This document shows, one piece after another, positions 5,371-34,844 of a stretch of DNA of 64,000 bases; position 1 is the first letter of the stretch; each line of letters opens with the position of its first letter. Below the pieces are notes generated by a model. The model had not been told where the DNA came from. It did no database searches and was given only the letters and a program-made list of their open reading frames with translations. Position numbers and translations under genes: made by a program. The stretch is taken from assembly GCF_036345155.1 (NCBI RefSeq), contig NZ_CP107772.1, positions 9,300,001 to 9,364,000 on the forward strand, in the 5' to 3' direction. Source of the stretch: Streptomyces sp. NBC_00582 (GTDB taxonomy: Bacteria > Actinomycetota > Actinomycetes > Streptomycetales > Streptomycetaceae).

Positions 5371-5430
5371 CCGCCCACCACGGCGAAGCGCCGCGGCACA
5401 CGAACCAAACAGGCGTGGTGAACAGTGTGT

Positions 5431-5463: not shown

Positions 5464-5481
5464 TTGCTTGTGGACGGCTCG

Positions 5482-6981: not shown

Positions 6982-7004
6982 GACCAGGACAGTACATGCG
7001 CATG

Positions 7005-7028: not shown

Positions 7029-7067
7029 CCGATGCAACAAAACCGTTTCTCTGCTACGGTGCGGGCC

Positions 7068-7490
7068 ATGGCGGCGAAGAACGGCGAGGTGGACAGAGCC
7101 GAGCGGGCGCTGGTCGAACAGTGGCGGGACATGCTGGCGCTGCACGCCCGGACCCAGTGCGAACTCGACCGGGCCCTGCACCGACACGGGCTGTGCGCCA
7201 GTGACTTCGAGGTGCTGGACGTGCTCGCCGAGTCGGCGGCGGACGTCACGTGCGGCTACCGCGTCCAGGAGATCGCCGAGCGTGTCCATCTCAGCCAGAG
7301 CGCCCTGTCCCGGCTGATCGCCCGCCTGGAGAAGGACGGTCTCGTCGAGCGCGGCCTGTGCGCCGAGGACCGCCGGGGCGTCCGCGTGGCGCTCACGGGC
7401 GAGGGGCGGGCGCTGCACGGGGATGTCCTGCCGGTGCAGCGAGCAGTGCTCACGCGGATGCTGGCGCAGCCGGACGTCAGCTCCAGGTGA
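7068..7490 (+). CDS. MarR-family repressor of the divergent MFS pump
   Basis: 140 residues from the ATG reading MAAKNGEVDRAERAL. The open frame reaches 6996, but those upstream ATGs lie in the palindromic operator. Winged helix: VQEIAERVHLSQSALSRLIARLEKDGLVERGLCAEDRRGVRVALTGEG, a textbook MarR core with the D-x-R wing. Two cysteines (HGLCASDFE, GLCAEDRR) might allow redox or thiol sensing, which is inference only. The last 14 bp overlap the 3' end of the convergent mycothiol-dependent isomerase-family gene. Confidence 0.9.
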   Translation: MAAKNGEVDRAERALVEQWRDMLALHARTQCELDRALHRHGLCASDFEVLDVLAESAADVTCGYRVQEIAERVHLSQSALSRLIARLEKDGLVERGLCAEDRRGVRVALTGEGRALHGDVLPVQRAVLTRMLAQPDVSSR

Positions 7491-8232
7491 CGGCGGAGTT
7501 CTCCCGCCACAGGGTGGCGAGCGACGTGTCGCCGGTGACGGCGGGGAACGGCAGGCGGTTCCACAGCGCCAGATAGAGCCGCGCCGCCGGTCCGTTGATC
7601 TCGCAGTCCGCGTGGCCGTCGGCGGTCCGCTCCGTCACGGGCGGTTCGGGGGACAGCCGTACGGTCCACACGGCGTCCTCCTCCAGATCGGTCGCCCGTA
7701 CTCGCAGCACCCGGGGCTTCCCGCTGCGCACCTTGCTTCTGCCGCGGGCGTGGAATCCGCTCAGCAGCTCGTCGATGCCGTCGGCGGCGAAGGCGGCGGG
7801 CAGACTCCGCGCACTGTCCTCCGGCGTGCGGCCCTGTGCCGAGTCGGCGTCGGCGCGGTGGACGGCCGTCTCGTGCGCCTGCCGTCTGGCCCAGAACGCG
7901 AGCGGCGAGGGGGCGGGCAGAAAGTGCCAGCACGCCACATCGGGCGGTGCGGTGGTCAGGGTGTCGACGAGCCGGCGGTGCCCCTCGCGGAACCACTCCA
8001 GCAGCTCGGACCCGTCGAGGTCCGGCTCGCCCTCGCCGGGGTGGTACTCCGTCCTGCCCTCGGCCACGAACGACCCCGCCCAGCGGTGGACCATGCCCGT
8101 GTGCCGCAGCAGGTCCCGGACCTGCCAGCCCGGGCAGGTGGGCACCTTGGCGTCGGTGCCCGCCCCGGCCGCCGCGTCGGCCAGTGCGCGGCCCTCCCGG
8201 TCGAGCACCTGGATGAACTCGGCAGTCTCCAT
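7477..8232 (-). CDS. Maleylpyruvate-isomerase-family (mycothiol/DinB-like) protein
   Basis: 251 residues starting at METAEFIQVLDREGRALADA; the frame extends further upstream but METAEF is the family-typical start. The N-terminal four-helix DinB/MDMPI domain has the conserved TCPGWQVRDLLRHTGMVHRW, including the metal-ligand His positions, and a later HETAVHRADA. The C-terminal ~100 residues are an SCP2-like alpha/beta domain ending in LWRENSAVTWS. Such proteins use mycothiol as cofactor in actinobacteria, but most paralogues have no assigned reaction. Convergent, 14-bp overlap with the MarR gene. Confidence 0.8.
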   Translation of the reverse strand: METAEFIQVLDREGRALADAAAGAGTDAKVPTCPGWQVRDLLRHTGMVHRWAGSFVAEGRTEYHPGEGEPDLDGSELLEWFREGHRRLVDTLTTAPPDVACWHFLPAPSPLAFWARRQAHETAVHRADADSAQGRTPEDSARSLPAAFAADGIDELLSGFHARGRSKVRSGKPRVLRVRATDLEEDAVWTVRLSPEPPVTERTADGHADCEINGPAARLYLALWNRLPFPAVTGDTSLATLWRENSAVTWS

Positions 8233-8316
8233 GGGGGTGAGTCTGCCGGATGGAGCGCGGTCCGACGCCGGTGTTCTTCTGCGCCCGGGCGGCACCTCTC
8301 GCCTGCCTGCGGCTGC

Positions 8317-8640
8317 TCAGGCCACCCGACGCGTACCGAAGCCGATCAGCGCGGCCGGCGCGGCGAGGACGGCCACGCTCGTCAGCGCGGCGGGCAGGGA
8401 GATCCACTCGGCCATGAACCCGATGGCGGGCGGTCCGAGGAGCATGCCGCCGTAGCCGAGGGTGAACGCGGTGGCGACCCCGCCGGGCCCTGCCAGGGCA
8501 CCCGCGCGTTCGACGGCCACCGGGAAGAGGTCGGCCAGGCCGAGCCCCGCGACCAGATAGCCCAGCAGCGCCGCCCACAGCGCGGGGGCGAGGGCACCGA
8601 GCGGCATCCCGGCGGCGGCGACGGCACCCCCGGTCACCAC
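8317..8640 (-). pseudogene. Truncated MFS transporter (C-terminal ~108 residues)
   Basis: The frame encodes only the last three or four membrane helices of a 12-TM MFS protein (GGAVAAAGMPLGALAPALWAALLGYLVAGLGLADLFPVAVERAG, then TLGYGGMLLGPPAIGFMAEW). No N-terminal half is present. Instead, the frame runs upstream into GGAGGAATCACGAAGCGC, which looks like the ribosome-binding site and first codons of another gene. A deletion seems to have fused the start of a gene divergent from the GntR regulator to the end of this transporter. It is unlikely to be functional. Confidence 0.7.
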
Positions 8641-8782
8641 CGTCGGCGCCCGGCAGCGGGCGGGGCTGATGCGGACGCGCTTCGTGATTCCTCCGGAACA
8701 ACGCTCGATGGATGTTGACAGGAATGTTGGAAGTCGACAGGAAGCGGGGGATCCCGTGTCCGGCGCGACACGGGGTGGGATA

Positions 8783-8792
8783 GTGTCGACAC
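8783..8792. promoter_or_regulatory. Putative GntR operator GTGTCGACAC
   Basis: Perfect 10-bp palindrome about 45 bp upstream of the GntR start. A related GTCGACAG element lies 50 bp further upstream. The TGTCGACA core recurs twice in front of the broken SDR gene, which suggests a common regulator. Confidence 0.55.
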
Positions 8793-8837
8793 CGTTGAAC
8801 CGGCTGTGAGCCCGGACCAGGCAGGGAGAAGTGCCGC

Positions 8838-9581
8838 ATGACCGACCAGGACACGCACCTCGTGCTGGAGCGCCTCCTGCGGTTGCGGGACCGGCGCGAG
8901 CCGCTGGTCGCGCAGATCGCCGAGTGGGTCGGCGCGGGCATCATCGAGGGCCGGCTGGAACCAGGGCAGGACCTCAACAGCGTTGATCTGTCACGCCGGT
9001 TCGACACCAGCCGCACCCCGGTGCGCGAGGCGCTGATGCTCCTCGAACAGGAGGGCCTGGTCGAGATGAAGGCGCGCCGCCGGCCCCGGGTCGCCGCGCC
9101 CTCCCCGCAGGACATCCGGGACATCTACCAGGTGCGCAAGAACCTCCTGTCGATGCTCGCGGCCCTGCTCGTCGAGCGGGCGAGCGAGGAGGAGATCGCC
9201 GAGCTGCGCACCCGGGTCGAGCGGATGCGGAAACTGGCGGACGACGGTGATGTGGACGGCTACTTCTGGAGCCATGTCACGCTCCAGGAGCGGATGACGG
9301 AGATCGTCGGCAACGCCACGCTCAAGCGGATCCTGGACTCCCTCGCGTTGCGCACCCTGATGCTGCGGCACCTGAGCCTCACCCGGGCCGGCCGTCTCGC
9401 CTCCAGCGTCGACGACCAGGAGCGGCTGCTCCAGGCGGTCGAGGAGCGGGACGGCGAACTGGCCTCCGCGCTGATCGCGGGCGCGACGGTGCGGGCCCAG
9501 CGGGCCGTCGAGAAGCAGTTGGAACAGGACGCGGCGGTCCGGGGCCGGGGGCCCGAGCGGCGCCGGCGCGCGGCCTCCTGA
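8838..9581 (+). CDS. GntR-family regulator (FadR/FCD type)
   Basis: 247 residues. The N-terminal wHTH (residues ~20-85) contains GRLEPGQDLNSVDLSRRFDTSRTPVREALMLLEQEGLVEM, the GntR signature. The C-terminal all-helical FCD domain (~100-225) has the metal/ligand-binding pattern DIYQVRKNL, HVTLQERMTEIVGN, HLSLTRAGRLASSVDDQERLLQAVEERD. It probably responds to a carboxylate or sugar acid. Its neighbours on both sides are decayed (MFS remnant and SDR pseudogene), so its original regulon at this locus has been lost while the regulator itself is intact. Confidence 0.9.
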   Translation: MTDQDTHLVLERLLRLRDRREPLVAQIAEWVGAGIIEGRLEPGQDLNSVDLSRRFDTSRTPVREALMLLEQEGLVEMKARRRPRVAAPSPQDIRDIYQVRKNLLSMLAALLVERASEEEIAELRTRVERMRKLADDGDVDGYFWSHVTLQERMTEIVGNATLKRILDSLALRTLMLRHLSLTRAGRLASSVDDQERLLQAVEERDGELASALIAGATVRAQRAVEKQLEQDAAVRGRGPERRRRAAS

Positions 9582-9598
9582 GGGGGCACACGCGCGGC

Positions 9599-10131
9599 TC
9601 ACTTGGCGAGCACTCCGCCGTCCACCGGGAAGTTCCCGCCGGTCACCCACGCCGAAAGGTCCCGCTGCCCCGGAAGGCGTTCACCGAGGCGAAGGTGACG
9701 ATCGAGCCGCCGCCCGAGGCCTCCATGAGCGGCCGCACCGCCCGGACGGGCAGGAAGGCGACGTCGATCTCACCGCGCAGGGTCGGCGTCCACCGCGCGT
9801 CGAAGTCCATCTCGGCGGTCGCCGCCGTGTGCGGGGCGATCGCCCCGGCGGTCACCAGGACGTCGACCCGCCCGTGCCGCTCGTACGCCTCGTCGGCGAA
9901 GCGCCGCGCGTCGGCCGGGACCTCATGTCGTACGGCGCGAGCACCTCGACGGTCGGCCCCCGGTCGGCGGCCTCCCTGCGGGTGCGTTCGGAGGCGGCCG
10001 CGTCGATGTCACAGCCGACGACGGTCGCGCCCTGCTCCGCGAGGTGCAGCGCGCAGCCCTGGCCGATCCCGGCTCCCGCGCCGGTGACGAGTGCGACTTT
10101 CCCGGAGAGCCTGCCGGTCGCATGGACCCCT
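9599..10131 (-). pseudogene. Short-chain dehydrogenase/reductase pseudogene
   Basis: Reading the minus strand gives [19 protein letters not shown] (SDR cofactor motif TGxxxGIG), then [22 protein letters not shown] and a frameshift near 9925. In another frame [24 protein letters not shown] and SGGGSIVTFASVNAFRG follow. Immediately after the catalytic Ser region the frame jumps to VTGGNFPVDGGVLAK and stop. The YxxxK active site and about 80 residues are missing, and the start region is also out of frame. An NAD(P)-dependent sugar or alcohol dehydrogenase has decayed here. The upstream TGTCGACA sites tie it to the neighbouring GntR regulator. Confidence 0.85.
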
Positions 10132-10183
10132 TTTCTCGTGACGTCCGCACGAGACGCGGCGCGACTCGCTCTCCCTTTTTTAG

Positions 10184-10191
10184 TGTCGACA
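10184..10191. promoter_or_regulatory. TGTCGACA element upstream of the SDR pseudogene
   Basis: Core TGTCGACA in the context TAGTGTCGACAGTATG, matching TAGTGTCGACA in front of the GntR gene. It lies between the SDR pseudogene and htpG. Confidence 0.5.
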
Positions 10192-10232
10192 GTATGACTG
10201 GGCCAAGGGGCATGGATTCGTCAAAACGCTTT

Positions 10233-10244
10233 TCTGTCGACAGA
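10233..10244. promoter_or_regulatory. Perfect palindrome TCTGTCGACAGA upstream of htpG and the SDR pseudogene
   Basis: 12-bp perfect palindrome containing the same TGTCGACA core, 51 bp from the previous site. It faces the SDR pseudogene on one side and lies ~120 bp before the htpG start on the other. Probable GntR-type operator, by repetition and position only. Confidence 0.55.
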
Positions 10245-10365
10245 TTCGGCTTCCCCTGTCGGACGGTGCTTGGTGCGAACGGCACGAGGGGCGCCCCGGC
10301 CTTTTGTAAAGTTGCCGTGACCACCACTCCACGCGACCCCGGAATCCGTGAGGTACACCCGAACC

Positions 10366-12261
10366 ATGACGACCGAAACGTTTGAGTTCCAGGTAGAGGC
10401 CCGTCAGCTGCTCCAGTTGATGATCCACTCGGTCTACTCGAACAAGGACGTCTTCCTGCGCGAGCTCGTCTCCAACGCCTCCGACGCGCTGGACAAGCTG
10501 CGCCTCGCCAAGCTGCGGGACGACACGCTCGACGCCGACGTCTCCGACCTCCACATCGAGATCGACACCGACACCGAGGCCCGTACGCTCACCGTGCGGG
10601 ACAACGGGATCGGGATGTCGTACGACGAGGTCGGCAAGCTCATCGGCACCATCGCCAACTCGGGCACCGCGCAGTTCGCCGAGGAACTGCGCGAGGCCCA
10701 GGACGCGGACAGCGCCGAGGGGCTCATCGGGCAGTTCGGCGTCGGCTTCTACTCCGGCTTCATGGTCGCCGACGAGATGACCCTGGTGACCCGGCGCGCC
10801 GGCGAGAGCCACGGCACCCGCTGGTCCTCGCGCGGCGAGGGGACGTACACCCTGGAGACCGTCGACGACGCGCCGCAGGGCACCTCGGTCACCCTGCACC
10901 TCAAGCCCGCCGACGACGAGGACAAGCTCCACGACTACACGTCCGCCTGGACGATCAAGGACATCGTCAAGCGGTACTCCGACTTCATCACCTGGCCGAT
11001 CCGCACGGTCCCGCGGCAGGGCGAGGACGGCACCACGCCCGAGGCCGAGACGCTCAACTCGATGAAGGCGCTGTGGGCTCGCTCGCGCGAGGAGGTCTCC
11101 GACGACGAGTACCACGAGCTGTACAAGCACATCAGCCACGACTGGCGCGAGCCGCTGGAGACCGTCAGGCTCCAGGCGGAGGGCACCTTCGAGTACCAGG
11201 CCCTGCTGTTCGTGCCCTCGCACGCCCCGCACGACCTCTACACCCAGGGCTACAAGCGCGGAGTGCAGCTCTACGTCAAGCGCGTCTTCATCATGGACGA
11301 CTGCGAGGCGCTGCTGCCGCCCTACCTGCGCTTCGTCAAGGGCGTGGTCGACGCGGCGGACCTCTCGCTGAACGTCTCCCGCGAGATCCTCCAGCAGGAC
11401 CGGCACATCCGCATGATGCAGCGCCGGCTCACCAAGAAGCTCCTGTCCACGGTCAAGGAGATGCGGGAGAACGCCCCCGAGCGGTACGCCACGTTCTGGC
11501 GGGAGTTCGGCTCGGTCCTCAAGGAGGGCCTGCTCAGCGACTCCGACAACCGCGAGACCCTGCTCGCCGCCGCGTCCTTCGCCAGCACCCACGACGGCGA
11601 ACCCACCACGCTCGCGGCGTACGTGGAGCGGATGAAGGACGGCCAGGAGGACATCTACTACCTGACCGGCGAGTCCCGCGAGAGCATCGAGAACTCCCCG
11701 CACATGGAGGCGTTCCGCGCCAAGGGCGTCGAGGTCCTGCTGCTCACCGACCCCGTCGACGAGGTGTGGGTCGACGTGGTGGGCGAGTTCGAGGGCAAGC
11801 GGCTGCGGTCCGTCGCCAAGGGCGAGGTGGACCTCGACGGCGAGAGCGACGACTCCTCCGACAGTGAGCGGGAGAAGCAGGGCGAGGAGTACGCCGCCCT
11901 GCTCGGCTGGATGAAGGAGCAGCTCGGCGACGACATCAAGGAGGTACGCCTCTCCTCGCGTCTCACCGTCTCCCCGTCCTGCCTCGTCTCCGACACCGGC
12001 GACCTCACCCCCGCGCTGGAGAACATGTACCGCGCGATGGGCCAGGAGGTGCCCAAGGCCCAGCGGATCCTCGAACTCAACCCCGGTCACCAGCTCGTGC
12101 AGGGCCTGAACAAGGCGTACCAGGAGCGTGAGGACCGCACCGAGCTCGCCGGGACCGCCGAACTGCTGCACGGCCTCGCGGTCCTCGCCGAGGGCGGCCG
12201 GCCGACGGACCCCGGACGGTTCGTGAAGCTGGTGGCCGAGCGACTGGAGCGCGCGCTCTAG
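10366..12261 (+). CDS. htpG: Molecular chaperone HtpG (Hsp90)
   Basis: 631 residues from [36 protein letters not shown], the universal Hsp90 start. The N-terminal GHKL ATPase shows [14 protein letters not shown] (Glu/Asn), [18 protein letters not shown] and [10 protein letters not shown]. The middle domain holds [14 protein letters not shown] and the catalytic-loop Arg region [12 protein letters not shown]. The C-terminal dimerisation domain ends without an MEEVD tail, as in bacteria. It is a cytosolic ATP-dependent folding chaperone. It is monocistronic, with a strong hairpin after the stop. I saw no CIRCE-type element upstream; a palindrome linked to the GntR locus lies ~120 bp before the start. 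Confidence 0.97.
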
Positions 12262-12422: not shown

Positions 12423-14747
12423 ATGTCCCAAGCGCATCCGACACACGCGGAAACAGGGGAGGTTGCCCCGCCGCGGGCGGGTCTCGTCGTCGCGGTGCTG
12501 GCCTTCGGCGGGATCGTCGTCTCGCTCATGCAGACGCTGGTCATCCCGATCGTCCCCGAACTGCCGAAGCTGCTCGACGCGTCGGCCTCGGACGCGGCCT
12601 GGGCCGTCACCGCCACCCTGCTCGCCGCCGCCGTCGCCACCCCCGTGACGGGCCGGCTCGGCGACATGTACGGCAAGCGGCGCATGCTGCTGGTCGGTCT
12701 GGTCATGCTGGTCGCCGGATCCGTCACGGCCGCCCTCAGCGACACCCTCGCCCCGATGATCGTCGGCCGGGCCCTGCAGGGCCTCGCCTCCGGTGTCATC
12801 CCGCTCGGCATCAGCATCATGCGCGACGAACTGCCCGCCGAGCGGCTCGGCCCGGCCACCGCGCTGATGAGCGCCTCCCTCGGCGTCGGCGGCGCCCTCG
12901 GTCTGCCCGCCGCCGCGCTCATCGCGGACCACCTCGACTGGCACGCGCTGTTCTGGACGTCCGCCGTGCTGGGGGTCGTCGCTGCGGTGCTCGTTCCGCT
13001 GTTCGTACCGGAGTCGCCGGTGCGCGCGGGCGGCCGCTTCGACGTGGTGGGCGCCCTCGGGATGGCGGTCGGGCTCGTCTGTCTGCTGCTGGGCATCTCC
13101 AAGGGCGCCGACTGGGGCTGGGGCAGCGCCACCACGCTCGGGCTGTTCGGCGCGGCCGTCGTCGTCCTCCTTCTGTGGGGCCTGTTCGAACTGCGCGTCA
13201 CCGAGCCCCTGGTGGACCTGCGGACCACCGCCCGCCGCCAGGTGCTGGTCACCAACCTCGCCTCCCTGGCCTTCGGGTTCTCCATGTTCGCGATGTCCCT
13301 GGTCCTTCCCCAGCTCCTGCAGTTGCCTGAGGCGACGGGCTATGGTCTGGGCAAGTCGCTGCTGGCCGCCGGACTCGTGATGGCCCCCACGGGCCTGGTC
13401 ATGATGGCCACCGCGCCGCTGTCCGCCCTGGTGTCCCGGGCACGCGGACCCAAGGCGACCCTGATGATCGGCGCCGTGATCGTCGCCGTCGGGTACGGGC
13501 TCGGTGTCGTGCTGATGGCCGCCGTCTGGCAGCTCGTGCTGGTCTCCTGCGTCATCGGCGCCGGCATCGGCTTCGCCTACGGGGCCATGCCCGCGCTCGT
13601 CATGGGCGCGGTGGACCCCTCCGAGACGGCCGCGGCGAACAGCCTCAACACACTGATGCGGTCCATCGGCACCTCGACCGCGAGCGCCGTCGCCGGGGTG
13701 GTCCTGGCCCGGATGACCACCTCCTTCGGCGCCGTCGCCCTGCCGTCCGAGCACGGGTTCACGGTGGTCATGGCGGTGGGGTCGGGCGCGGCGGTGCTGG
13801 CGCTGGTGGTCGCCGCGTTCCTTCCGCGCCGGCGGGTGGCCGCGGCGGAGGGCGAGCCGGACGCCCCAGCCGCTGCCGTACGGGACGAACGGGCCGTCGG
13901 GGCCGCGGTCGCCGTGCCGCTGGCCCGTGCCGTCGCCGAGCTGGTCGCGACGGTGCCGGGACTCGGCGACGGGGAGCCGGGCGGCGGTGGGCATCCGGTG
14001 CGCGGGCAGGTGCGCGATGCGCGGAGCACGCCGGTCGCCGGGGCCGCGCTGACGCTGATCTCGCTGAGCGGACGGCAGTTGGGCCGCGTGGTCACCGCCG
14101 CCGACGGCTCCTACGCCCTCGACGCGCCGGGCGAGGGCCCGTATGTGCTGATCACCGCCGCCGACGGCCATCAGCCGCAGGCGACGACCGTCGTGGCGGG
14201 GGCGGCTCCGGTGACGTACGACGTTCTCCTCGTCGGGGGCAGCGGGCTCACCGGTGTGGTGCGCTCCGCCGACGGCGGTGCCCCGGTCGCCGGGGCGGTC
14301 GTCATCGTCACGGACGTGCGCGGGGATGTGCTGGCCAGTGTGCGGACCGACGGCACGGGCGCCTTCACGGTGGCCGACCTGGTGCCCGGACCGGTGACCG
14401 TCGCCGTCGGCTCGCCCAAGCACCGGCCGCTGGCCCTGCCCGTGGAGATCGGCGCCGCCGGTCTCACCCGGGTCGACGTGGAGCTGCGGCCCGGCGCACA
14501 GGTCCGGGGCACGGTACGCGGAGCGGGGGCCCCGCTGGGCGACGCGCGGGTGACCCTGGTGGACGCCGCCGGGAACGTCGTCGCCTCCACGACGACCGGC
14601 AGCGACGGCGCGTACGCCTTCTCCGACCTGGACGGCGGCCGGTACACGGTGATCGCCACCGGCTATCCGCCCCGCGCGAGCGGGATCAGCCTCGGCGGCG
14701 GTGACGTGAACGCCCACGACATCGAACTCGCCCACGCCGGCGACTAG
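12423..14747 (+). CDS. MFS transporter fused to carboxypeptidase-regulatory-like repeats
   Basis: 774 residues. Residues ~20-475 form a DHA2-like 14-helix MFS transporter: LVVAVLAFGGIVVSLMQT at the start, motif A in GRLGDMYGKRRMLLVG, and the MRDELPAERLG loop. After the last helix a ~40-residue linker leads into about 260 residues of Ala/Gly/Val-rich beta repeats. Each repeat has the pattern V-x-GxVR...PVAGAxVxLxD...Ax-T-xxDGxYxFxDLxxGxYxVxATGYxP, the carboxypeptidase regulatory-like (transthyretin-like) Ig fold, about three copies. An even number of helices would keep both ends in the cytosol; if the last helix leaves the C-terminus outside, the repeats face the cell wall. The function is presumably efflux; the repeats may bind substrate or partners. 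Confidence 0.9.
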   Translation: MSQAHPTHAETGEVAPPRAGLVVAVLAFGGIVVSLMQTLVIPIVPELPKLLDASASDAAWAVTATLLAAAVATPVTGRLGDMYGKRRMLLVGLVMLVAGSVTAALSDTLAPMIVGRALQGLASGVIPLGISIMRDELPAERLGPATALMSASLGVGGALGLPAAALIADHLDWHALFWTSAVLGVVAAVLVPLFVPESPVRAGGRFDVVGALGMAVGLVCLLLGISKGADWGWGSATTLGLFGAAVVVLLLWGLFELRVTEPLVDLRTTARRQVLVTNLASLAFGFSMFAMSLVLPQLLQLPEATGYGLGKSLLAAGLVMAPTGLVMMATAPLSALVSRARGPKATLMIGAVIVAVGYGLGVVLMAAVWQLVLVSCVIGAGIGFAYGAMPALVMGAVDPSETAAANSLNTLMRSIGTSTASAVAGVVLARMTTSFGAVALPSEHGFTVVMAVGSGAAVLALVVAAFLPRRRVAAAEGEPDAPAAAVRDERAVGAAVAVPLARAVAELVATVPGLGDGEPGGGGHPVRGQVRDARSTPVAGAALTLISLSGRQLGRVVTAADGSYALDAPGEGPYVLITAADGHQPQATTVVAGAAPVTYDVLLVGGSGLTGVVRSADGGAPVAGAVVIVTDVRGDVLASVRTDGTGAFTVADLVPGPVTVAVGSPKHRPLALPVEIGAAGLTRVDVELRPGAQVRGTVRGAGAPLGDARVTLVDAAGNVVASTTTGSDGAYAFSDLDGGRYTVIATGYPPRASGISLGGGDVNAHDIELAHAGD

Positions 14748-20709: not shown

Positions 20710-21564
20710 TCACGGCCCGGTGAGGCTCCACAGCGCCGCCACCGCCGGCCTGCGCAGGTCCGCCCTGCGCACGCACAGCCCGATCGGGAACGACTCCGGC
20801 GGCGGACCGGCCACCGGCACCACCGCCAGCCGCCCCCGCACCGCGCTGTGCTCCAGGACCAGCCGCGGCACCACCCCGGTGCCGCAGCCCAGGGCGACGA
20901 GCGCGAGCAGCCCCTCGTGGCCGTCCGGTTCGCAGACCACCTCGGGGGTGCGGCCGCGGGCCCGGAACCAGCGGTCGGCCGCCTCCCGCACCAGCCCGCG
21001 CTGCGGGAGCACGAACGGCCCGTCCAGGCCCTCGTCCGGCCGCTCCCGCGCGGTCACGCAGACCAGCTCCGTGACCGCCACCGTCCGGCTCACCAGCGCC
21101 GCCGGCAGCCGCGCCGGGATCCCCGCCACCGCCACGTCGACCTCGCCCTCGTCCAGCCGGGCCAGCGCGGCCGCCGCGTCCCCGGTCCGCAGATCCAGCC
21201 GGACCTGCGGATGCGCCGCGCGGAACGGCGCCAACAGGTCCGGCAGCAACGCCTGACAGGCGGTCACCGTCGCGAACAGGGCCAGGCGGCCGGTGAGTTC
21301 GGCCGGATCCGGATGCTCCTCCCGGTACGCGCGCCACAACTCCAGCGCCTGCAGCGCGTACGCGCGGAACCGGTGGCCCTCCGCCGTCAGCGCCACCCCG
21401 CGCGGCCCGCGGTCCAGCAGCCGGTGCCCGAGATCCGCCTCCAGCCGCTGCACGGTCCGCGTCAGCGTCGCCGGACTGACGTGACAGTCCAGGCTCGTCC
21501 GCCCGAAGTTCAGCGTCCGTGCCAGATGCAGGAACAGCCGCAGCTCCCGATGGTCGTCCCGCAT
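20710..21564 (-). CDS. ilvY: IlvY-like LysR-type regulator of ilvC
   Basis: 284 residues. The N-terminal HTH (FLHLARTLNFGRTSLDCHVSPATLTRTVQRLEADLG) and effector domain (LPDLLAPFRAAHPQVRLDLRTGDAAAALARLDEGEVDVAVAG; GHEGLLALVALGCGTGVVPRLVLEHS) line up throughout with E. coli IlvY as I remember it. E. coli IlvY activates the divergent ilvC when acetolactate or acetohydroxybutyrate accumulates. The same divergent arrangement is present here, with TTGC/GCAA palindromes in the 83-bp gap. IlvY is typical of gammaproteobacteria, and a dedicated IlvY next to ilvC is not the usual Streptomyces layout. Confidence 0.85.
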   Translation of the reverse strand: MRDDHRELRLFLHLARTLNFGRTSLDCHVSPATLTRTVQRLEADLGHRLLDRGPRGVALTAEGHRFRAYALQALELWRAYREEHPDPAELTGRLALFATVTACQALLPDLLAPFRAAHPQVRLDLRTGDAAAALARLDEGEVDVAVAGIPARLPAALVSRTVAVTELVCVTARERPDEGLDGPFVLPQRGLVREAADRWFRARGRTPEVVCEPDGHEGLLALVALGCGTGVVPRLVLEHSAVRGRLAVVPVAGPPPESFPIGLCVRRADLRRPAVAALWSLTGP

Positions 21565-21604
21565 GACCTGGCCCTTTCATGTTCCGCAACACCCCGCTGC
21601 AAGA

Positions 21605-21621
21605 GTTGCGCTTGTCGCAAC
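21605..21621. promoter_or_regulatory. Putative IlvY operator
   Basis: Inverted repeat GTTGCG-CTTGT-CGCAAC between the ilvY-like and ilvC-like genes. A second, looser pair (CCGCAAC about 20 bp upstream and TGCAAG) lies beside it. Tandem sites between divergent genes match the known IlvY control scheme. Confidence 0.55.
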
Positions 21622-21647
21622 ACCGGCCCGGAGCCTACAACTCGACC

Positions 21648-23132
21648 ATGACCTCGACGACGTACACCTCCACGCCGTACACCTCCCGTGTGTTCCCCCT
21701 GGAGACCATGGCCGTGCCCGGCGGCACCGAGACCGTCCTGCGCGGTGGCCGGCACCTCTTCCCGCTGCTGCCGCGGGCGTTCGCCGGAGTGCGCCGGATC
21801 GGGGTGCTCGGCTGGGGGCCGCAGGGCCGTGCCCAGGCCCTCAACCTGCGGGACTCGCTCGCCGACACCGGCATCCTGGTCACCGTCGGGCTGCGCCCGG
21901 GCTCCCCGTCGGCCGACGACGCCCGCGCCCACGGCTTCACCGAGGAGGACGGAACGCTCGGCGACTGGCTGGCCGTGGCCGCCGACAGCGACCTGCTGAT
22001 CCTGCTCATCGCCGACGCCGCCCTCGCCGCGCACCACGAGGAGATCTTCCGGGCCCTGAGGCCCGGCGCCGTGATCGGACTCTCCCACGGCTTCCTGCTC
22101 GGCCATCTCCGGGAGAACGGCGGCGACTTCCCGCGCGGCCACGCCGTGATCGCCGTCTGCCCCAAGGGCATGGGTGACTCCGTCCGCCGCCTCTACCAGC
22201 AGGGTGCCGAGACCGACGGCGCCGGGATCAACAGCAGTTGGGCCGTGCACGCCGACCCCGACGGCCGGGCGACCGACCTCGCGCTCGGCTGGTCGGTGGC
22301 GCTGGGCTCGCCGTACACCTTCCGCACCACCCTCGACAGCGAGTACCGCTCGGACGTCGTCGGCGAACGGGCCGTCCTGCTCGGCGCGGTCCACGGCATC
22401 GTCGAGAGCCTGTACGGGCGTTACCGGCTCGCGGGCGACGACGCGATCACCGCGTACGAGAAGTCGTGCGAGAACGTCACGGGCCCGATCGCCCGTACGA
22501 TCTCCCGGTCCGGACTGCTTGCGGTGCGCGAGGACCTCGACCCGGCCGGCCGGGAGGTCTTCGACCGCGCGTACACGGCGACGTACGCACCGGCCCGCGA
22601 GATCGTCGCGGAGATCTACGACGAGGTCGCCGACGGCACCGAGCTGCGCAGCGTCGTCCTCGCCGAACGGCGCCTCGCGCGGCGCCCGATGACCGGGATC
22701 GAGGGTTCACCGATGTGGGCGGTGGCCCCGCGCGTCCACGCCCGCCGGGGCGGACGGGAGCTCGCCGTCGAGCCGTTCACGGCCGGGGTGTTCGTCGCGA
22801 CGACGATCGCCCAGATCGACGAGTTCGCCGAACGCGGCCACCCCTGGTCGGAGATCGTCAACGAGTCCGTCATCGAGGCCGTCGACTCCCTGCTGCCGTA
22901 CATGCACGCCCGGGACGTGGCGTACATGGTCGACAACTGCTCCCGCACGGCCCGGCTCGGCGCCCGCCGCTGGGGTCCGCGGTTCCAGGCGGCCTACGAG
23001 CAGATCGCCTACCCCGCCGCCGAACTCCCCGCGGACGACGCCCTGGTGCGAGCCTTCGCCACGCACCCCGCGCACGCGGCGCTGGCCGCGGCGGCCGCGC
23101 TGCGGCCCTCCGTGGACATCCGCGTCGCCTGA
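21648..23132 (+). CDS. ilvC: Class II, plant-type ketol-acid reductoisomerase
   Basis: 494 residues from ATG MTSTTYTSTPYTSRVF; the frame opens further upstream but into the operator region. Catalyses Mg2+/NADPH-dependent isomeroreduction of acetolactate and acetohydroxybutyrate in valine, leucine and isoleucine synthesis. The Rossmann motif GWGPQG is at 55-60. Metal ligands are Asp236 and Glu240 (SDVVGER) and Glu402/Glu406 (SEIVNESVIEAVD). The substrate Ser432 is in DNCSRTARLG. The length (~500) is class II; Streptomyces IlvC is normally class I (~330). Motifs such as LSHGFLLGHL, VIAVCPKGMGDSVRRLY, GAGINSSWAVH and DGRATDLALGWSVALGSP resemble the spinach chloroplast enzyme more than E. coli IlvC. 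It has no transit peptide. Controlled by the divergent IlvY-like activator. Confidence 0.93.
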   Translation: MTSTTYTSTPYTSRVFPLETMAVPGGTETVLRGGRHLFPLLPRAFAGVRRIGVLGWGPQGRAQALNLRDSLADTGILVTVGLRPGSPSADDARAHGFTEEDGTLGDWLAVAADSDLLILLIADAALAAHHEEIFRALRPGAVIGLSHGFLLGHLRENGGDFPRGHAVIAVCPKGMGDSVRRLYQQGAETDGAGINSSWAVHADPDGRATDLALGWSVALGSPYTFRTTLDSEYRSDVVGERAVLLGAVHGIVESLYGRYRLAGDDAITAYEKSCENVTGPIARTISRSGLLAVREDLDPAGREVFDRAYTATYAPAREIVAEIYDEVADGTELRSVVLAERRLARRPMTGIEGSPMWAVAPRVHARRGGRELAVEPFTAGVFVATTIAQIDEFAERGHPWSEIVNESVIEAVDSLLPYMHARDVAYMVDNCSRTARLGARRWGPRFQAAYEQIAYPAAELPADDALVRAFATHPAHAALAAAAALRPSVDIRVA

Positions 23133-28318: not shown

Positions 28319-28795
28319 CTACGCGCCCGTGGTGAGCCGTCGGTCGAGCCGGGTCATCGCCTCCCGGAACGAACGCCCCAGCCCCGGTGCCGCCAGCCGC
28401 AGCAAGCCTCTCACCAGGACGGTCCCGTCCGCGGCGAACGTCCACCGCACCCGGGTCCCCGGGCCGTCGGGCGCGAGCCGCCACTCCTCGACCAGCGCCC
28501 GCACCCCCGGCGCGTTGGTGACGTCCACCCGGTAGGCGTACAGCTCGGGCTCCTTCGCCGCGAGCACCGTCTCCCGGAACCGCCCGCCGCCCCACAGCCG
28601 TACGTCCCGCCCCGCTCCTTCGTCGAGCGGCACGATGGAGGTGACGGCCGGGAACCACTCGGCCCAGCCGGAGACGTCCTCGGCCAGCGCGTGGAAGACC
28701 CGCTCCGGCGGGGCGGAGACCGCACGCGTGAACACCAGCCGTACAGGAGCGACCCCGACGAAGTCGAGCCCCTCGGCGCGCAGACGACGGACCAT
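28319..28795 (-). CDS. SRPBCC (START-like) family protein
   Basis: 158 residues from the ATG (MVRRLRAEGLDFVGVAPVRL) downstream of GAGGGGG; an in-frame start 48 bp upstream is possible. Helix-grip fold pattern: FTRAVSAPPERVFHALAEDVSGWAEWFPAVTSIVPLD, GGRFRETVLAAKEPELYAYRV, then VEEWRLAPDGPGTRVRWTFAADG and a C-terminal helix. Binds a hydrophobic ligand by family analogy; the function is unknown. Same strand and 52 bp downstream of the DeoR gene, so possibly cotranscribed. Confidence 0.8.
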   Translation of the reverse strand: MVRRLRAEGLDFVGVAPVRLVFTRAVSAPPERVFHALAEDVSGWAEWFPAVTSIVPLDEGAGRDVRLWGGGRFRETVLAAKEPELYAYRVDVTNAPGVRALVEEWRLAPDGPGTRVRWTFAADGTVLVRGLLRLAAPGLGRSFREAMTRLDRRLTTGA

Positions 28796-28847
28796 GACGA
28801 CACGAACCCCCTCGGTCGGCGGATCCGTCACCCTAGCCGTCACCCCG

Positions 28848-29678
28848 TCAGATGTCTTCCCCCGTACCGTTCTCGCCGGCCACCACCAGTCGCCGCAGAT
28901 GCTCCGAGATCTCCGTGCGGGCGGCGCCCGGCAGCCCGGCGTCCGTGACCAGCGTGTCGACCTGCTCCAGGGCCGCGAACGAACTCAGGCCCACCACACC
29001 CCACTTGGTGTGGTCGGCGACCACCACGACCCGGCGCGCCGACTGCACCAGACGCCGGTTGGTCTCGGCCTCCGCCAGGTTCGGCGTCGACAGCCCGGCC
29101 TCGGCGGATATGCCGTGCACACCGAGGAACAGCAGATCGAAGTGGAGCGCCGCGATGGCCTGGTCGGCGACCGGCCCCACCAGCGAGTCGGACGGGGTGC
29201 GCACCCCACCGGTCAGCACCACCGTCGCCGCGCCCTGCCGGGGACCCGAGATGCGCTGCGCCCCGTGGAACACATCGGCGACCCGCACCGAGTTCGTCAC
29301 CACGGTCAGGTCCGGCACCTCGAGCAGCTGATGCGCCAGCGCGTACGTCGTCGTACCGCCCGACAGCGCGATCGCGCTGCCCGGCGCCACCAGCTCCGCG
29401 GCGGCCCGCGCGATGTCCTCCTTGGCGGTCAGCTCAAGACCCGACTTCGCCTCGAAGCCCGGCTCGTGCGTACTCGCCTCCACCACCGGCACGGCGCCGC
29501 CGTGCACCTTCTCCAGCACACCCTGGCGGGCCAGCGCGTCCAGATCGCGGCGGACCGTCATGTCCGACACGCCGAGCTTGCGGGTGAGCTCGTTGACGCG
29601 GACGCCGCCCCGGCGACGCACCTCGTCCAGGATCAGGGAGCGGCGCTGCTCCGCGAGGAGGTTCTGATTCTCGCTCAC
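28848..29678 (-). CDS. DeoR/GlpR-family transcriptional regulator
   Basis: 276 residues from GTG (MSENQNLLAEQRRSLILDEVRRRGGVRVNELTRKLGVSDMTVRRDL). HTH followed by GVLEKVHGGAV, then the DeoRC domain with LSGGTTTYALAHQL, VVTNSVRVADVF, VVLTGGVRTPSDSLVGPVA, FLGVHGISAEAGLSTPNLAEAETNR and VVVADHTKWG. This last set is the classic AgaR/GlpR/GatR pattern. No sugar genes adjoin it. A perfect palindrome lies 55 bp upstream of the start, suggesting autoregulation. Confidence 0.92.
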   Translation of the reverse strand: MSENQNLLAEQRRSLILDEVRRRGGVRVNELTRKLGVSDMTVRRDLDALARQGVLEKVHGGAVPVVEASTHEPGFEAKSGLELTAKEDIARAAAELVAPGSAIALSGGTTTYALAHQLLEVPDLTVVTNSVRVADVFHGAQRISGPRQGAATVVLTGGVRTPSDSLVGPVADQAIAALHFDLLFLGVHGISAEAGLSTPNLAEAETNRRLVQSARRVVVVADHTKWGVVGLSSFAALEQVDTLVTDAGLPGAARTEISEHLRRLVVAGENGTGEDI

Positions 29679-29732
29679 GTACGCTCCGGTCCTTTCCTCG
29701 AACGGGTCGGCAGGCCCGCTCACCTGCGGCGA

Positions 29733-29746
29733 CGAGAACATTCTCG
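29733..29746. promoter_or_regulatory. Palindrome CGAGAA-CA-TTCTCG upstream of the DeoR gene
   Basis: Perfect 6-bp arms around a CA centre in the 263-bp gap between the DeoR gene and the divergent membrane hydrolase gene. Possible DeoR autoregulatory site. Confidence 0.45.
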
Positions 29747-29960
29747 CCGGTCCCAGGTACGCGGGCGTCCCATCCTCGCACGACAGGCCGCCGACCGTGC
29801 CGGCACCCCGATGCGCGTATGCCGTCAACGGGCTGTGATCTTCCTGTGTCGCACGGATCGGGGAGATTCGGTGCGCCGAGGTGTAGACGCCCTCCGGAGC
29901 GGAGATCCTGTGCCCGCACGGCAGACCGGGAAGCGGCGTGTCATGGGGGAAGTGCGAACA

Positions 29961-32279
29961 GTGGAACGTTCCTCGACGGACCGAGCGGCGCTGGAACTCC
30001 TCGTCCACGGCGTGGGCGGCGCCACGCCCGAGAAGATGCTGAACGATCCGCGCACCGTGCGGATCACCGGCGACGACACGGCCGCGGTCTACCGGCGCGC
30101 CGAGGACGCCGACGCGGACAGCCCGGCCGCCGACGCCAACACACCGTCCGGCGACCACGACGGACGGCCGGTCCCGGAGGCGTACGTCTGGTCCAACCTG
30201 ACCTCGGGCAACGGCACCCGCGCCCTGTGGCTGTTGCTGCTGCCGTTCATGGTGGTCAACCTCGCCCACTGGATGCGCCCCGCCGCCCGCGAGGGCACCC
30301 GCGCGGTCCGCCTCTACGGCCTGCTGGTACGGCTCGCCGGCCTCAGCCTGACGGTCCTGCTCGTCGCCGCGGCCTGCGAGGTCGCCCTGGACCTCACCGC
30401 CTGGCAGTGCGCGGGCACCCGCGCGTGCGCCGCGCGCCACTCCTGGCTGGGCTTCCTCTCCCCGAGCGGCTCGCACGAGGGCTGGTGGAGCCCGCCGGGC
30501 CGCCGTCTCGCCCTCGCCGCCCTGGTCCCGACCGCCCTGACCGGACTCCTGTGGTACCTCTCCCACCGCACCTGGCGGGCGTACGAGTCCCAGGAACCCC
30601 TCGACCGGGGCCCCGAGCCCGAGCACGGTCCCGCCCAGACCGCGCTGAGCCGCCCAGGCTTCTGGTACGGCCGCCGCCTCGTCGCCCGGCTGCGCGCCGC
30701 CCACACCGCGGCTGGCCTGCTCACGGTGGCCGCGGCGGTCGGTACGGCGGCCGCCCGCGAGGACCACCGCCCCGGCGGCCCCGCCGCCCTGGACGCGCTC
30801 GGCCGGCTGCTGGAGGTGTCCCTGACCCTCGGGGCGCTCGCCGTGGTCTGGGTGGTGTGCCGGCGCGGACGCAGCGAGAACCGCCTCGACCGCACCCTCG
30901 ACGCCCACCTCGTCCACCGCCTCCCCCTCACCGCCCTCACCTTCCTCGCCCTCACCCTCGTCTACGCCGCCTGGGACCGCCCGCACTGGCACTCCTCCGG
31001 CCGCCTGGCCGGCGACACGACCTTCGGCACCCTCGCCCTGGCCCAGGGCGCCCTGGTGATCACCCTGGCCGCCGTCGCGCGCGTCCTGCACCGAGGACCC
31101 GGGACCGGGCCGCGCCCGGACGACCGGGAGCGGTCCGCCCTGCGCGGACTCGGCGGGCCCGCTGTGGTGATGCTGGCCTGCGCGCTGGGCGGAGTGATGT
31201 CCGGCGGGGTGTCCCAACGGGTCTCGGACTGGCTGGACGGGACCGGGACCTCGCTCGACGGCCCGCCGGTGCTGCTGACCTGGCAGGCGTCCGTGATCCC
31301 CGTACTGCTCCTCGTCCTGCTGGCGCTGTCCGCGCTGCTCGGACGCCGCACCTGGCGGCTCACCCGGGCCGAGCGGGAGGCGGTGGCCCGGGAGTACGGC
31401 GCCGTTCCGGGCGACCCGGCCCGCACCGGCCGTATCGCCCGTACGCGGTCGATGGCCACCCTCACCGACCGCGGCCCCCTGCTCGTCGCCGTCACCGCCA
31501 CCACCACCCTGCTCCTGGGCGCGGGCGCCCTCGCCGGAACCTTCGTCAGCGGTGAGACCCCCGTCCGGGCCGCCGAGGCGGCCGGCCCCTTCGTGCAGGG
31601 CGCCGCCCGGACCGCGCAGGCGCTCGGCTCCTGGCTGATCGGCCTCGGCTTCCTCCTCTTCGTCACCTGGGGCCGCCGCGCCTACAAGGACGCCTCCGCG
31701 CGCCGCACCATCGGGATCCTCTGGGACGTGGGCACCTTCTGGCCCCGCGCCGCCCACCCCTTCGCCCCGCCCTGCTACGCCGAGCGCGCGGTGCCCGACC
31801 TGACCTGGAGGATGACCGGCTGGACCCGGGCCACCGGCGGCCGTCTCGTCATCTCCGGGCACTCCCAGGGCAGCGTCCTCGCCGCGGCCGCCGCCTGGCA
31901 GCTCAAGCCCTCCGACCGCAAACGGGTCGCCCTGCTCACCTACGGCTCACCGATCGAGCGCCTCTACGGCCGCTGGTTCCCCGCCCACTTCGGCCCGGCC
32001 GCGCTCGCCGCCCTGCACCGGGACATCGACTGCTGGCGCAATCTGTACCGGCTCACCGACCCCATCGGCGGCCCGGTACGTCTGACCGGCGACGACTGCG
32101 GCCCCGCAGTGGACCGCGCTCCCCTCGCGGACCCCCTGGCGTACGGCCGCACCGCCGCGCACCCGCTGCCCGCCCCCATCCTCGGCCACTCCGACTACCA
32201 GGCGGATCCGGCCTTCGCCGAGGAACGCGCCCGCCTGCTGGCCCGGCTCCACCCCGACCTGCCCGTACAGCGCGCCTGA
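29961..32279 (+). CDS. Multi-pass membrane protein with split alpha/beta-hydrolase motifs
   Basis: 772 residues from the GTG 8 nt after GGGGGAAG; an ATG at 29943 overlaps that ribosome-binding site. Residues 10-20 read ALELLVHGVGG, like the strand and oxyanion turn of an alpha/beta hydrolase. There follow ~570 residues with roughly ten hydrophobic helices (for example LWLLLLPFMVVNLAHWM, LTALTFLALTLVYAAW, PVLLLVLLALSALLG, LLVAVTATTTLLLGAGALAG). The C-terminal ~170 residues carry the nucleophile elbow LVISGHSQGSVLAAAAAW (Ser near 634), TYGSPIERLYGRWFP and a late His (LGHSDYQADP). This suggests a membrane-anchored serine esterase or lipase. Substrate unknown. It ends 5 bp from the convergent AAA+ gene. 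Confidence 0.75.
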   Translation: MERSSTDRAALELLVHGVGGATPEKMLNDPRTVRITGDDTAAVYRRAEDADADSPAADANTPSGDHDGRPVPEAYVWSNLTSGNGTRALWLLLLPFMVVNLAHWMRPAAREGTRAVRLYGLLVRLAGLSLTVLLVAAACEVALDLTAWQCAGTRACAARHSWLGFLSPSGSHEGWWSPPGRRLALAALVPTALTGLLWYLSHRTWRAYESQEPLDRGPEPEHGPAQTALSRPGFWYGRRLVARLRAAHTAAGLLTVAAAVGTAAAREDHRPGGPAALDALGRLLEVSLTLGALAVVWVVCRRGRSENRLDRTLDAHLVHRLPLTALTFLALTLVYAAWDRPHWHSSGRLAGDTTFGTLALAQGALVITLAAVARVLHRGPGTGPRPDDRERSALRGLGGPAVVMLACALGGVMSGGVSQRVSDWLDGTGTSLDGPPVLLTWQASVIPVLLLVLLALSALLGRRTWRLTRAEREAVAREYGAVPGDPARTGRIARTRSMATLTDRGPLLVAVTATTTLLLGAGALAGTFVSGETPVRAAEAAGPFVQGAARTAQALGSWLIGLGFLLFVTWGRRAYKDASARRTIGILWDVGTFWPRAAHPFAPPCYAERAVPDLTWRMTGWTRATGGRLVISGHSQGSVLAAAAAWQLKPSDRKRVALLTYGSPIERLYGRWFPAHFGPAALAALHRDIDCWRNLYRLTDPIGGPVRLTGDDCGPAVDRAPLADPLAYGRTAAHPLPAPILGHSDYQADPAFAEERARLLARLHPDLPVQRA

Positions 32280-32284
32280 GGGGG

Positions 32285-34729
32285 TCAGGGCAGCTCGGGC
32301 AGGTCCTCCACGAACAACAGGGTCAGATCGTCCGTGCTCGGCTCGGCGAGCTGCGCGACCCGGCTCGCGTGCCGCTCCACCATCGCCTCGAACGTCTGGC
32401 GCGCCGTACGCCCGTTGCCGAAGGCGGCACCCTTGGGGATCTCCGTGAAGTACTTCGACAGGGCCTCCGCGGTGCCCGGCGCCAGCCGGTACTCGTGCTC
32501 CTCCGCCTGCTGCTCCACGATCCGCAGCAGTTCCTCGGGGCCGTAGTCGCCGAAGGTGATGGTCCGTGAGAAACGGGACGCCACACCCGGGTTGACCGTG
32601 AGGAACCGCTCCATCTCGGCCGTGTAGCCCGCCACGATCACCACCACCGAGTCCCGGTGGTCCTCCATCAGCTTCACCAGGGTGTCGATGGCCTCCTTGC
32701 CGAAGTCCCGCCCCGCGTCCTCCGGCGACAGCGCGTACGCCTCGTCGATGAACAGCACCCCGCCGTGCGCCCGCTGGAACGCCTCCTGCGTACGGATGGC
32801 GGTGGAGCCGATGTGCTCGCCGACCAGGTCGACCCGGGACACCTCGACGAGATGACCCTTCTCCAGCACTTCGAGGGAGGCGAGGATCTCGCCGTACAGC
32901 CGAGCGACCGTCGTCTTGCCGGTGCCGGGGGAGCCGGTGAACACCAGATGGCGCTTGACCGAGGCCGCCTTCAGGCCCGCCCGCTGGCGGCGCCGGCCCA
33001 CCTCGATCATGTCGGTCAGCGCCCGTACCTCGCGCTTGACGCTCTCCAGACCCACCAGCGCGTCGAGTTCGCCCAGCACGTCCGTCGACGTCCGCACCGA
33101 CGCCTCCGTCCCACCCTCGGCCGCGCCCGGCTGCGGCTCCGGCAAGGTCACCCGCTGCTCGGGGAACGGACCGAGCAGACCCACCGCGGAGGGGGTCGTC
33201 TGGACGGCAGTCTCCCGGGAGGCCGCGGTCCGCAGGCCGGCGCTCTCGTCGCTGGTGCAGTCCTCGACCACGGCTCCCGCACCGGGCGCCCCGTCGGCCC
33301 CGGTCTCCGCGAACTCGTACCCCCCGCGGGCGCAGCGCTCGGTGCGGCACCGGCGCAGGGTGGCGCGGCAACCGTCTATCACGTGGAAGCCATAGCCGCC
33401 GCTGTCGGTCACCCGGCAGTTCAGGAAGCTGCCCCGGCCGCCGGCGGAGACGTAGAAACCGGCTTCGGCGGGGGAGGTGACCGTGCAGCGCTCCACCGTG
33501 GGGTCGGCGCCCTTGGTGACGATCACGCCGGTCTGCACGCCGTCCACCGTGCAGTTGTTGAGGGTGCCGCCGCTGCCGTGGTCGCGGAACCAGGCGCCGG
33601 TCGCCGCCTCCCGGATCCGGCAGTCGTCGAGCTGGGCGGTCGCGCCGTCGCTCACCGACACGGCTGTGTTGCGCACCTGGGCCAGATCGCTGTCGATGAC
33701 GTCCGCGCGCGAGCCGCGGTCGAGGACGAACAACGCGTCCGGCACGTCGTGCACCCGGCAGGAGTCGAGCACGGCGGTCGCGCCGTCACTGACCCATACG
33801 GCCGGGTAGTCGCCGGTGCTGTCGAAGATCTCGCACTGGTTGGCGTCCACCCGGGTGCCCGGGTCCCACACCGACAGCCCGTTGCGCCCGAACTGACGCA
33901 CCGTCGTGCGCGTCAGTGTCAGCACGGAGCGGGACCGCAGGTCGATCGCGTTCTCGGGGATGTCGTGGATACGGCAGTCGGCGAGCGTGAGCACGGCGTC
34001 CGTGTCGATCGTGACGCCGTCCGCGGTGGTGCGGTGCACGGCGCAGTCCGTGAGGTGGGCCGTCGCCCGCGCGGTGACCTGCACCCCGCTGCCGCGGATC
34101 TCGTAGATCTCGCAGCCCACCGCCTCCAGGCCGGAGTTGTCGCCGGTGACGCTCACCCCGGTGCCGGAGGCGTGATGGACCCGGGAGCGCTCGAGCCGGG
34201 GGTGCGCGCCCCCGCGGACCAGGACGCCCGCCTGCCCGGCCGCGACGACCTCGCACTCCTCGAAGACACCGCCGCCGCCGTCGACCACCGCGATCCCGAT
34301 GCCCGCGGGGTTGTCGACCGTGCACCGCCGCACCGTCGGACGGGCGTTGCCGCGCACCTCGATGCCCGTGGCGGAGCGGGTGACGATCCGCATGTCCAGC
34401 AGCTCGGGCGTGCCCTCCTCCACGAGGACCGCCGGAGCGGCCGCGTCCTGGCCCTCCACGTGCAGGTCCTGCACCACCGCCGACGCGCACACCGTCAGCG
34501 GCACCCCGTCCACGGGAGCGATCCGCACGGAGCCGGGCGAGCCCTCGGGGCCGCGCAGCGTCACCGACCGCTGGACGACGAGGTTCTCCCGGTAGGTGCC
34601 GGGAGCGATCGTGAGGACGTCGCCCTCGGCCGCGGCCTCCAGGGCGGCGGCGAGCGATGCGTACTCACCCGTGCGGCGCCGCCACCTCGATGTGCCGGTG
34701 TGCGTCACCTGGACCGTGCCCTGTGCCAT
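32285..34729 (-). CDS. Right-handed beta-helix protein fused to a CbbX/SpoVK-type AAA+ ATPase
   Basis: 814 residues from ATG MAQGTVQVTHTG; the frame continues upstream without a better start. Residues ~1-500 are parallel beta-helix repeats, starting with the pectate-lyase-like GEYASLAAALEAAAEGDVLTIAPGTYRENL. About 20 rungs follow (motifs such as AVLDSCRVHDVPDALFV, VERCTVTSPAEAGFYV). After a linker rich in Pro/Glu/Thr, residues ~560-810 form an AAA+ ATPase. It has Walker A GSPGTGKTT (~600), Walker B VLFIDEAYAL (~660), sensor VVIVAGYTAEM, arginine finger NPGVASRFSRTITF and lid GNGRTARQTFEAMVERH. The ATPase belongs to the CbbX/SpoVK/EccA clade. No signal peptide. The helix may recruit a client for ATP-driven remodelling; the client is unknown. 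Confidence 0.9.
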   Translation of the reverse strand: MAQGTVQVTHTGTSRWRRRTGEYASLAAALEAAAEGDVLTIAPGTYRENLVVQRSVTLRGPEGSPGSVRIAPVDGVPLTVCASAVVQDLHVEGQDAAAPAVLVEEGTPELLDMRIVTRSATGIEVRGNARPTVRRCTVDNPAGIGIAVVDGGGGVFEECEVVAAGQAGVLVRGGAHPRLERSRVHHASGTGVSVTGDNSGLEAVGCEIYEIRGSGVQVTARATAHLTDCAVHRTTADGVTIDTDAVLTLADCRIHDIPENAIDLRSRSVLTLTRTTVRQFGRNGLSVWDPGTRVDANQCEIFDSTGDYPAVWVSDGATAVLDSCRVHDVPDALFVLDRGSRADVIDSDLAQVRNTAVSVSDGATAQLDDCRIREAATGAWFRDHGSGGTLNNCTVDGVQTGVIVTKGADPTVERCTVTSPAEAGFYVSAGGRGSFLNCRVTDSGGYGFHVIDGCRATLRRCRTERCARGGYEFAETGADGAPGAGAVVEDCTSDESAGLRTAASRETAVQTTPSAVGLLGPFPEQRVTLPEPQPGAAEGGTEASVRTSTDVLGELDALVGLESVKREVRALTDMIEVGRRRQRAGLKAASVKRHLVFTGSPGTGKTTVARLYGEILASLEVLEKGHLVEVSRVDLVGEHIGSTAIRTQEAFQRAHGGVLFIDEAYALSPEDAGRDFGKEAIDTLVKLMEDHRDSVVVIVAGYTAEMERFLTVNPGVASRFSRTITFGDYGPEELLRIVEQQAEEHEYRLAPGTAEALSKYFTEIPKGAAFGNGRTARQTFEAMVERHASRVAQLAEPSTDDLTLLFVEDLPELP

Positions 34730-34844
34730 GGCGTTGCTGTGCCCCCACCTCGTCGTACGCGGGTTTGATGCCGAATCATGCATGGTTCGGCCGGACCACC
34801 GTAGCGTGCGCGCGGGCGGAGAGTTGACCACTGACCGAACGACG

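Follow-up and report, generated by a model that had tools for sequence, protein, structure and literature searches.

KARI Systems with Related Parts

In E. coli, the gene of the class II ketol-acid reductoisomerase (KARI), ilvC, lies divergent from ilvY, and the region between the two carries TTGCAAAAATTGCAA, which corresponds to the core of O1, the operator described in PMC5002191. The co-inducers of the E. coli regulator are reported to be acetolactate and acetohydroxybutyrate (PMC6483228), so that the enzyme is made when its substrate is present. Another class II enzyme is the chloroplast KARI of plants, with structures from rice (3fr7) and spinach (1qmg, 1yve). As given in PMC5940873, the Km for acetolactate is ~10 µM for the spinach and barley KARIs and 280 µM for that of E. 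coli, with values of about 800-12,000 µM for Streptomyces class I KARIs. In Streptomyces itself, a second KARI gene is known from S. coelicolor, whose IlvC1 and IlvC2 (SCO7154) are described as 97% identical to each other (PMC4353338) and as class I enzymes (PMC5940873). The main text of PMC4353338, on Streptomyces KARI paralogues, uses the terms 'class II' and 'IlvY' 0 times, and a literature search by title or abstract start found no publication dealing with plant-type KARIs of Streptomyces.

The locus described here lies in a window of DNA from Streptomyces sp. NBC_00582, by which we mean the whole stretch of 64,000 nucleotides that was analysed, and comprises two genes:

20710..21564, minus strand: IlvY-type LysR regulator, divergent from the KARI gene (NF008722 model; divergent neighbour in related loci)
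21648..23132, plus strand: KARI, plant-type class II, A-type, 494 aa (Pfam; sequence, residue and fold comparison)

With the plant enzymes the window KARI shares colinear sequence, fold, and metal and NADPH residues, but the plant enzymes have a 6-residue insert, are ~55% identical to it and fall outside the A-type clade. The E. coli ilvY-ilvC system has in common with it a divergent IlvY-type LysR gene, a TTGC-N7-GCAA operator and a class II KARI as the target, but the KARI encoded in E. coli belongs to a separate, distantly related class II type, whereas the window KARI is a second one beside class I. The S. coelicolor case is likewise one of a second KARI gene in a Streptomyces, although both of its enzymes belong to class I. 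Lastly, a group that we call B-type (loci L034-L037, protein P0122) also consists of plant-type class II enzymes from Streptomyces and other actinobacteria, but these are ~58% identical to the window KARI and make up a clade of their own, nearer to the plants. No match to the window IlvY was present in any of the four B-type loci, and in three of them (L034, L036 and L037) a MEKHLA-domain (PAS-like) gene adjoins the KARI gene just upstream, as a two-piece match in L034.

A Plant-Type Class II Enzyme beside a Class I Copy

Both Pfam domains of the family were recognised in the window KARI, PF07991 (KARI_N) with 89.1 bits for a cut-off of 20.6 and PF01450 (KARI_C) with 100.5 bits for a cut-off of 29.1. 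Its scores lay below the cut-offs of the NCBIfam ilvC equivalogs (166 of 226 bits for TIGR00465, 114 of 336 for NF004017 and 61 of 713 for NF003557), models apparently derived from class I enzymes and from those of the E. coli type. Sequence comparison gave ~55% identity with the rice enzyme, and the same figure holds for spinach, well over the value for the E. coli KARI, which was 26% across part of the length. Moreover, the predicted fold matched that of spinach KARI at 1.3 Å across 488 residues, so that a protein of ~490 residues matches plant KARI over nearly its full length in both sequence and fold. KARI_C appears as a single Pfam stretch in the window protein, with a weak second stretch in relatives, and the predicted fold aligns across the duplicated part of the spinach enzyme. 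Twelve metal, NADPH and catalytic positions, which we take to be Mg/substrate residues and NADPH loop residues, were the same as in plant KARIs in 73/73 rows of the alignment, including all 24 A-type rows. The frame at 21648-23132 is, on these comparisons of sequence and predicted fold, a plant-type class II KARI with predicted isomeroreductase activity. This agrees with an earlier note made from the DNA alone, which had assigned the protein to this type and had held its metal and substrate residues to be kept, as they are at the 12 positions tested.

The genome of the strain (11.15 Mb in two contigs) contains two KARI genes. The other one, a class I ilvC encoding 332 aa, is preceded by ilvB and followed by a 3-phosphoglycerate-dehydrogenase-like gene; the presence of such a copy, which the earlier note had left to be checked, makes the window KARI a second, separately placed KARI. 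Among genomes carrying an A-type gene, 32 were hand-picked from the 80 A-type loci described below, and 31 of them also have a class I KARI. Streptomyces ipomoeae (L072, G636) was considered as a genome with the plant type only and was rejected, because the ilvB contig of this draft stops ~600 bases beyond ilvB and is thus uninformative on class I. A plant-type KARI without any class I match was observed in G329 (L128/L132), a genome of the same phylum but another class that is 94% complete, and there the plant type may be the sole KARI.

The IlvY Regulator and the Conserved Pair

The regulator scored 260 bits with NF008722, the IlvY equivalog (cut-off 246), and shares 37% identity with the IlvY of E. 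coli. Relatives of the window KARI were collected in a GTDB scan with one genome per species, which yielded 328 loci. The best 80 of these 328, referred to as the A loci, are all actinobacterial, and the genera named among them are Streptomyces, Nonomuraea, Kribbella, Pseudonocardia, Microlunatus, Dactylosporangium, Micromonospora, Actinocatenispora and Actinopolymorpha; a few of the loci carry no genus name. When 6 kb on each side of the KARI gene were examined for neighbours, IlvY was the divergent neighbour in 73 of the 80 A loci, across nine genera, as expected from the earlier identification of the regulator as an IlvY homologue in divergent layout. The ROK, RlmG-like, aldolase, dehydrogenase and Cds1 genes found around the window pair recur in Streptomyces loci and were not found within those 6 kb per side in the other named genera. 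What is conserved from one genus to another is the pair of IlvY and KARI genes.

The region between the two genes measures 83 bp, and the following elements are predicted in it:

21606..21620, plus strand: predicted IlvY operator TTGCGCTTGTCGCAA (TTGC-N7-GCAA; exact motif in related intergenic regions)
21586..21600, plus strand: second conserved block GCAAC....CGNTGC beside the operator (column conservation in 66 anchored regions)
21612..21617, plus strand: TTGTCG, predicted -35 hexamer for KARI, within the operator (sequence and conserved columns)
21636..21641, plus strand: predicted -10 hexamer TACAAC, 6 bp ahead of the ATG (conserved offset)

An exact TTGC-N7-GCAA motif occurs in 66 of 74 IlvY-KARI intergenic regions (73 loci plus the window) and is always 15 bp long, though 14-16 were permitted; the remaining eight regions carry a near match, as judged by eye. 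By chance, 0.285 regions would be expected to contain it from single-base shuffles and 1.065 from first-order Markov resampling, and the 66 are not independent events, because the loci are related and kinship inflates such counts. The motif persists across genera whose KARIs are ~30% different from that of the window, and it agrees with the E. coli element in both half-sites and in their spacing. Such a 15-bp TTGC-N7-GCAA operator between IlvY and KARI genes, to which IlvY is predicted to bind, is new in this analysis. As the 15-mer TTGCGCTTGYYGCAA has one match in the whole genome of the strain, KARI is probably the only target at this stringency. The block at 21586..21600 probably represents further half-sites for IlvY.

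Regarding the promoter, TACAAC is exact at offset 30-35 from the operator in 54 of the 66 regions, the ATG stands at offset 42 in 49 of the 52 that could be evaluated, and both coincide in 48. The spacer between the predicted -35 and -10 hexamers is 18 bp in the window. Since the A of the KARI ATG falls at the predicted +1, the mRNA is perhaps leaderless. A scan with the sigma-70 consensus found no promoter, and the promoter with its -35 inside the operator consists of predicted elements.

An adjacent full IlvY was missing in seven of the 80 loci, namely six of Kribbella (L116-L121) and L125. All six Kribbella loci carry the operator directly before KARI, and in the five displaced genomes that were searched (5/5) IlvY lies ~6-7 kb from KARI, with the operator found in none of the five 250-base stretches upstream of the displaced gene; in two control Kribbella with an intact pair it was present upstream of IlvY in both. 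The operator has therefore been retained where KARI is. The TACAAC -10 was not found in the six loci with displaced IlvY. In L116-L121, a subclade of Kribbella, transporter, ThuA and MocA genes precede KARI. A new operon of transporter, ThuA, MocA, KARI and LtrA was considered for these loci and rejected, as IlvY was separated and the operator kept at KARI.

A Proposed Substrate-Inducible Second KARI

The two genes are best read, with a probability that we put at roughly 0.78, as a unit of IlvY and a second KARI that is induced by its substrate and may have a higher affinity than the class I enzyme. IlvY would bind the operator, which overlaps the -35 hexamer predicted for KARI, and acetolactate or acetohydroxybutyrate, the substrates of KARI, would act as co-inducers of IlvY when they pile up, raising KARI expression as in E. 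coli ilvYC. In a weaker extension of this proposal, a high-affinity second KARI would clear the acetohydroxy acids left by the class I enzyme encoded beside ilvB. The idea of high affinity comes from the Km of ~10 µM of plant class II enzymes against the ~0.8-12 mM of Streptomyces class I, and may perhaps be carried over to the A-type from plant enzymes that are ~55% identical and on another branch.

A different possibility is that the enzyme was neofunctionalised on another substrate, with IlvY sensing that molecule. A KARI-family protein of bacteria, BurG, is a cyclopropanol synthase (PMC9359912), Streptomyces KARIs are reported to be promiscuous (PMC4353338), and the A-type clade stands on a long stem of its own. 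Such a change is nevertheless unlikely, since all 24 A-type rows keep the plant residues at the 12 tested positions, only three clade-diagnostic positions of the A-type rose above the threshold used in the alignment, and the regulator, like the operator, is IlvY-type.

The earlier note had also raised a self-resistant or inhibitor-tolerant copy. Such a copy would protect the strain against a KARI inhibitor made by itself or its neighbours, and this would suit an accessory gene of patchy distribution whose B-type counterpart is found on plasmids of Streptomyces, two of the three plasmid copies having MFS transporter genes at a distance of up to 9 kb. The window moreover contains a candidate cluster: between 50691 and 64000 there are genes for a formyltransferase, an ornithine/lysine monooxygenase, a binding protein and ABC transporters, together with the first part of an NRPS that continues past the end of the window, so that from ~50.7 kb onwards the gene content is that of a hydroxamate-siderophore type cluster. 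This cluster is, however, of the iron-uptake type and begins ~27 kb downstream of KARI, with many unrelated genes between them. The neighbours of KARI are genes for a ROK regulator, an RlmG-like methyltransferase, an aldolase, a 3-hydroxyisobutyrate-type dehydrogenase, a permease piece, an ATPase and Cds1, and a Pfam scan of all 48 window ORFs picked by composition (some picks past 53 kb being on the wrong strand) found no biosynthetic cluster near KARI, which is thus not inside a natural-product gene cluster. Furthermore, the IlvY-KARI pair is kept in other genera where the other window neighbours are missing, an IlvY-type regulator fits flux control, and the tested residues are those of the plant type, to which, according to the title of 1yve, the inhibitor IpOHA binds. 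With a cross-genus unit that is just the pair, no adjoining cluster and plant-like active-site positions, the proposal is unsupported and self-resistance appears improbable.

A substrate-inducible second KARI, if that is what the pair encodes, would be an unrecognised inducible step in the branched-chain precursor supply of some Streptomyces. Branched-chain precursors feed many polyketides and branched fatty acids. A short promoter responsive to acetolactate, if real, might serve as a biosensor, and a bacterial relative of KARI, which is a herbicide target in plants, could aid inhibitor work. The interest of the unit is modest but testable.

Phylogeny and Origin

Trees were built from the window KARI, 23 of the 80 A loci, 20 of the best 120 B-type proteins, 27 of the best 120 proteins of a third set (C), drawn from the best matches to one protein, and two plant sequences on a long branch; the bacterial rows were hand-picked for spread, and L115 was excluded for its stops and broken frame. 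These were trees of the quick type with SH-aLRT values and no bootstrap, free of algae and cyanobacteria. In the tree without an outgroup, the 24 A rows form one clade and the 20 B rows another, with SH-aLRT of 100 each, and the plants group with all B rows and 10 of the 27 C rows (SH-aLRT 99), apart from A. The same groups were recovered with the strain's own class I enzyme as outgroup; only the grouping was used and not the root, as this outgroup branch is very long (length 10) and the rooting unreliable. By their source names, the C rows include Actinomycetota, Armatimonadota, Polyangia, Dehalococcoidia and Acidimicrobiales.

A recent transfer of the KARI gene from a plant to Streptomyces, which the ~55% identity to rice and spinach, far over that to E. 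coli class II, might suggest, is extremely unlikely, since the plant rows stand apart from the single A clade, the seven bacterial rows inspected all lack the plant 6-residue insert, as does the window KARI, and the organism-named matches among the best 120 of each of three protein searches are all bacterial. The 'plant-chloroplast-like' of the earlier note thus holds as resemblance but not as origin, the plant sequences branching among other bacterial ones; if anything, the grouping places the plant enzyme within a bacterial family, whose members offer a route to the question of where plant KARI came from.

More tentatively, and with the odds somewhat against it, plant KARI may be one branch of an old and widespread bacterial class II family, with another branch serving scattered actinobacteria as an overflow KARI that is induced by substrate, has high affinity and works alongside their class I enzyme, the pairing of switch and enzyme being independent of enzyme class. 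This last element follows from an IlvY operator geometry that is as in E. coli although the KARI type differs.

Distribution and Decay

An intact A-type gene was present in 24 of 295 sampled Streptomyces genomes, that of the strain included, and an intact B-type gene in one (G122; 58% identity to the window KARI); all 25 contain at least one further KARI-like match. The earlier note had contemplated a placement inside ordinary actinobacterial class II sequences present in most Streptomyces, and the window KARI does fall inside an actinobacterial clade, but one that occurs in a minority of Streptomyces and not in most. In an even but thin draw of 346 Actinomycetota genomes (E <= 1e-50), the two positives were the genome of the strain and G329.

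Three genomes (G182, G104 and G124) contain partial matches, and a second copy in G196 is degenerate and interrupted by stops. The G104 remnant has lost both N-terminal parts and the stretch between them, and the ROK gene that lies near the window pair also adjoins the remnants in G104 and G182. Such remnants indicate that the IlvY-KARI unit can be lost, and the unit is dispensable, being missing from most sampled Streptomyces and decayed in some. In L125 (Streptomyces sp. MNU76), KARI is in two pieces ~200 bases apart and only 25 IlvY residues match, so that this locus also looks decayed.

In a phage collection four records matched, none with at least 80% of the query covered, and there is thus no sign of phage carriage of the A-type. 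Plasmids gave 43 records, three of which cover at least 80% and are all ~59% identical to the window KARI, hence B-type. The B-type plasmid copies L035 and L036 lie amid transposases and MFS transporters.

Other Reading Frames of the Window

Downstream of the pair, an open frame of 1214 aa (28635-32279) resembles coding DNA in its composition and matched nothing in Pfam at 1e-5. At 32285-34831, right-handed beta-helix repeats are joined to an AAA ATPase with a lid domain, and at 12423-14747 an MFS transporter and carboxypeptidase-regulatory-like repeats are found in one frame.
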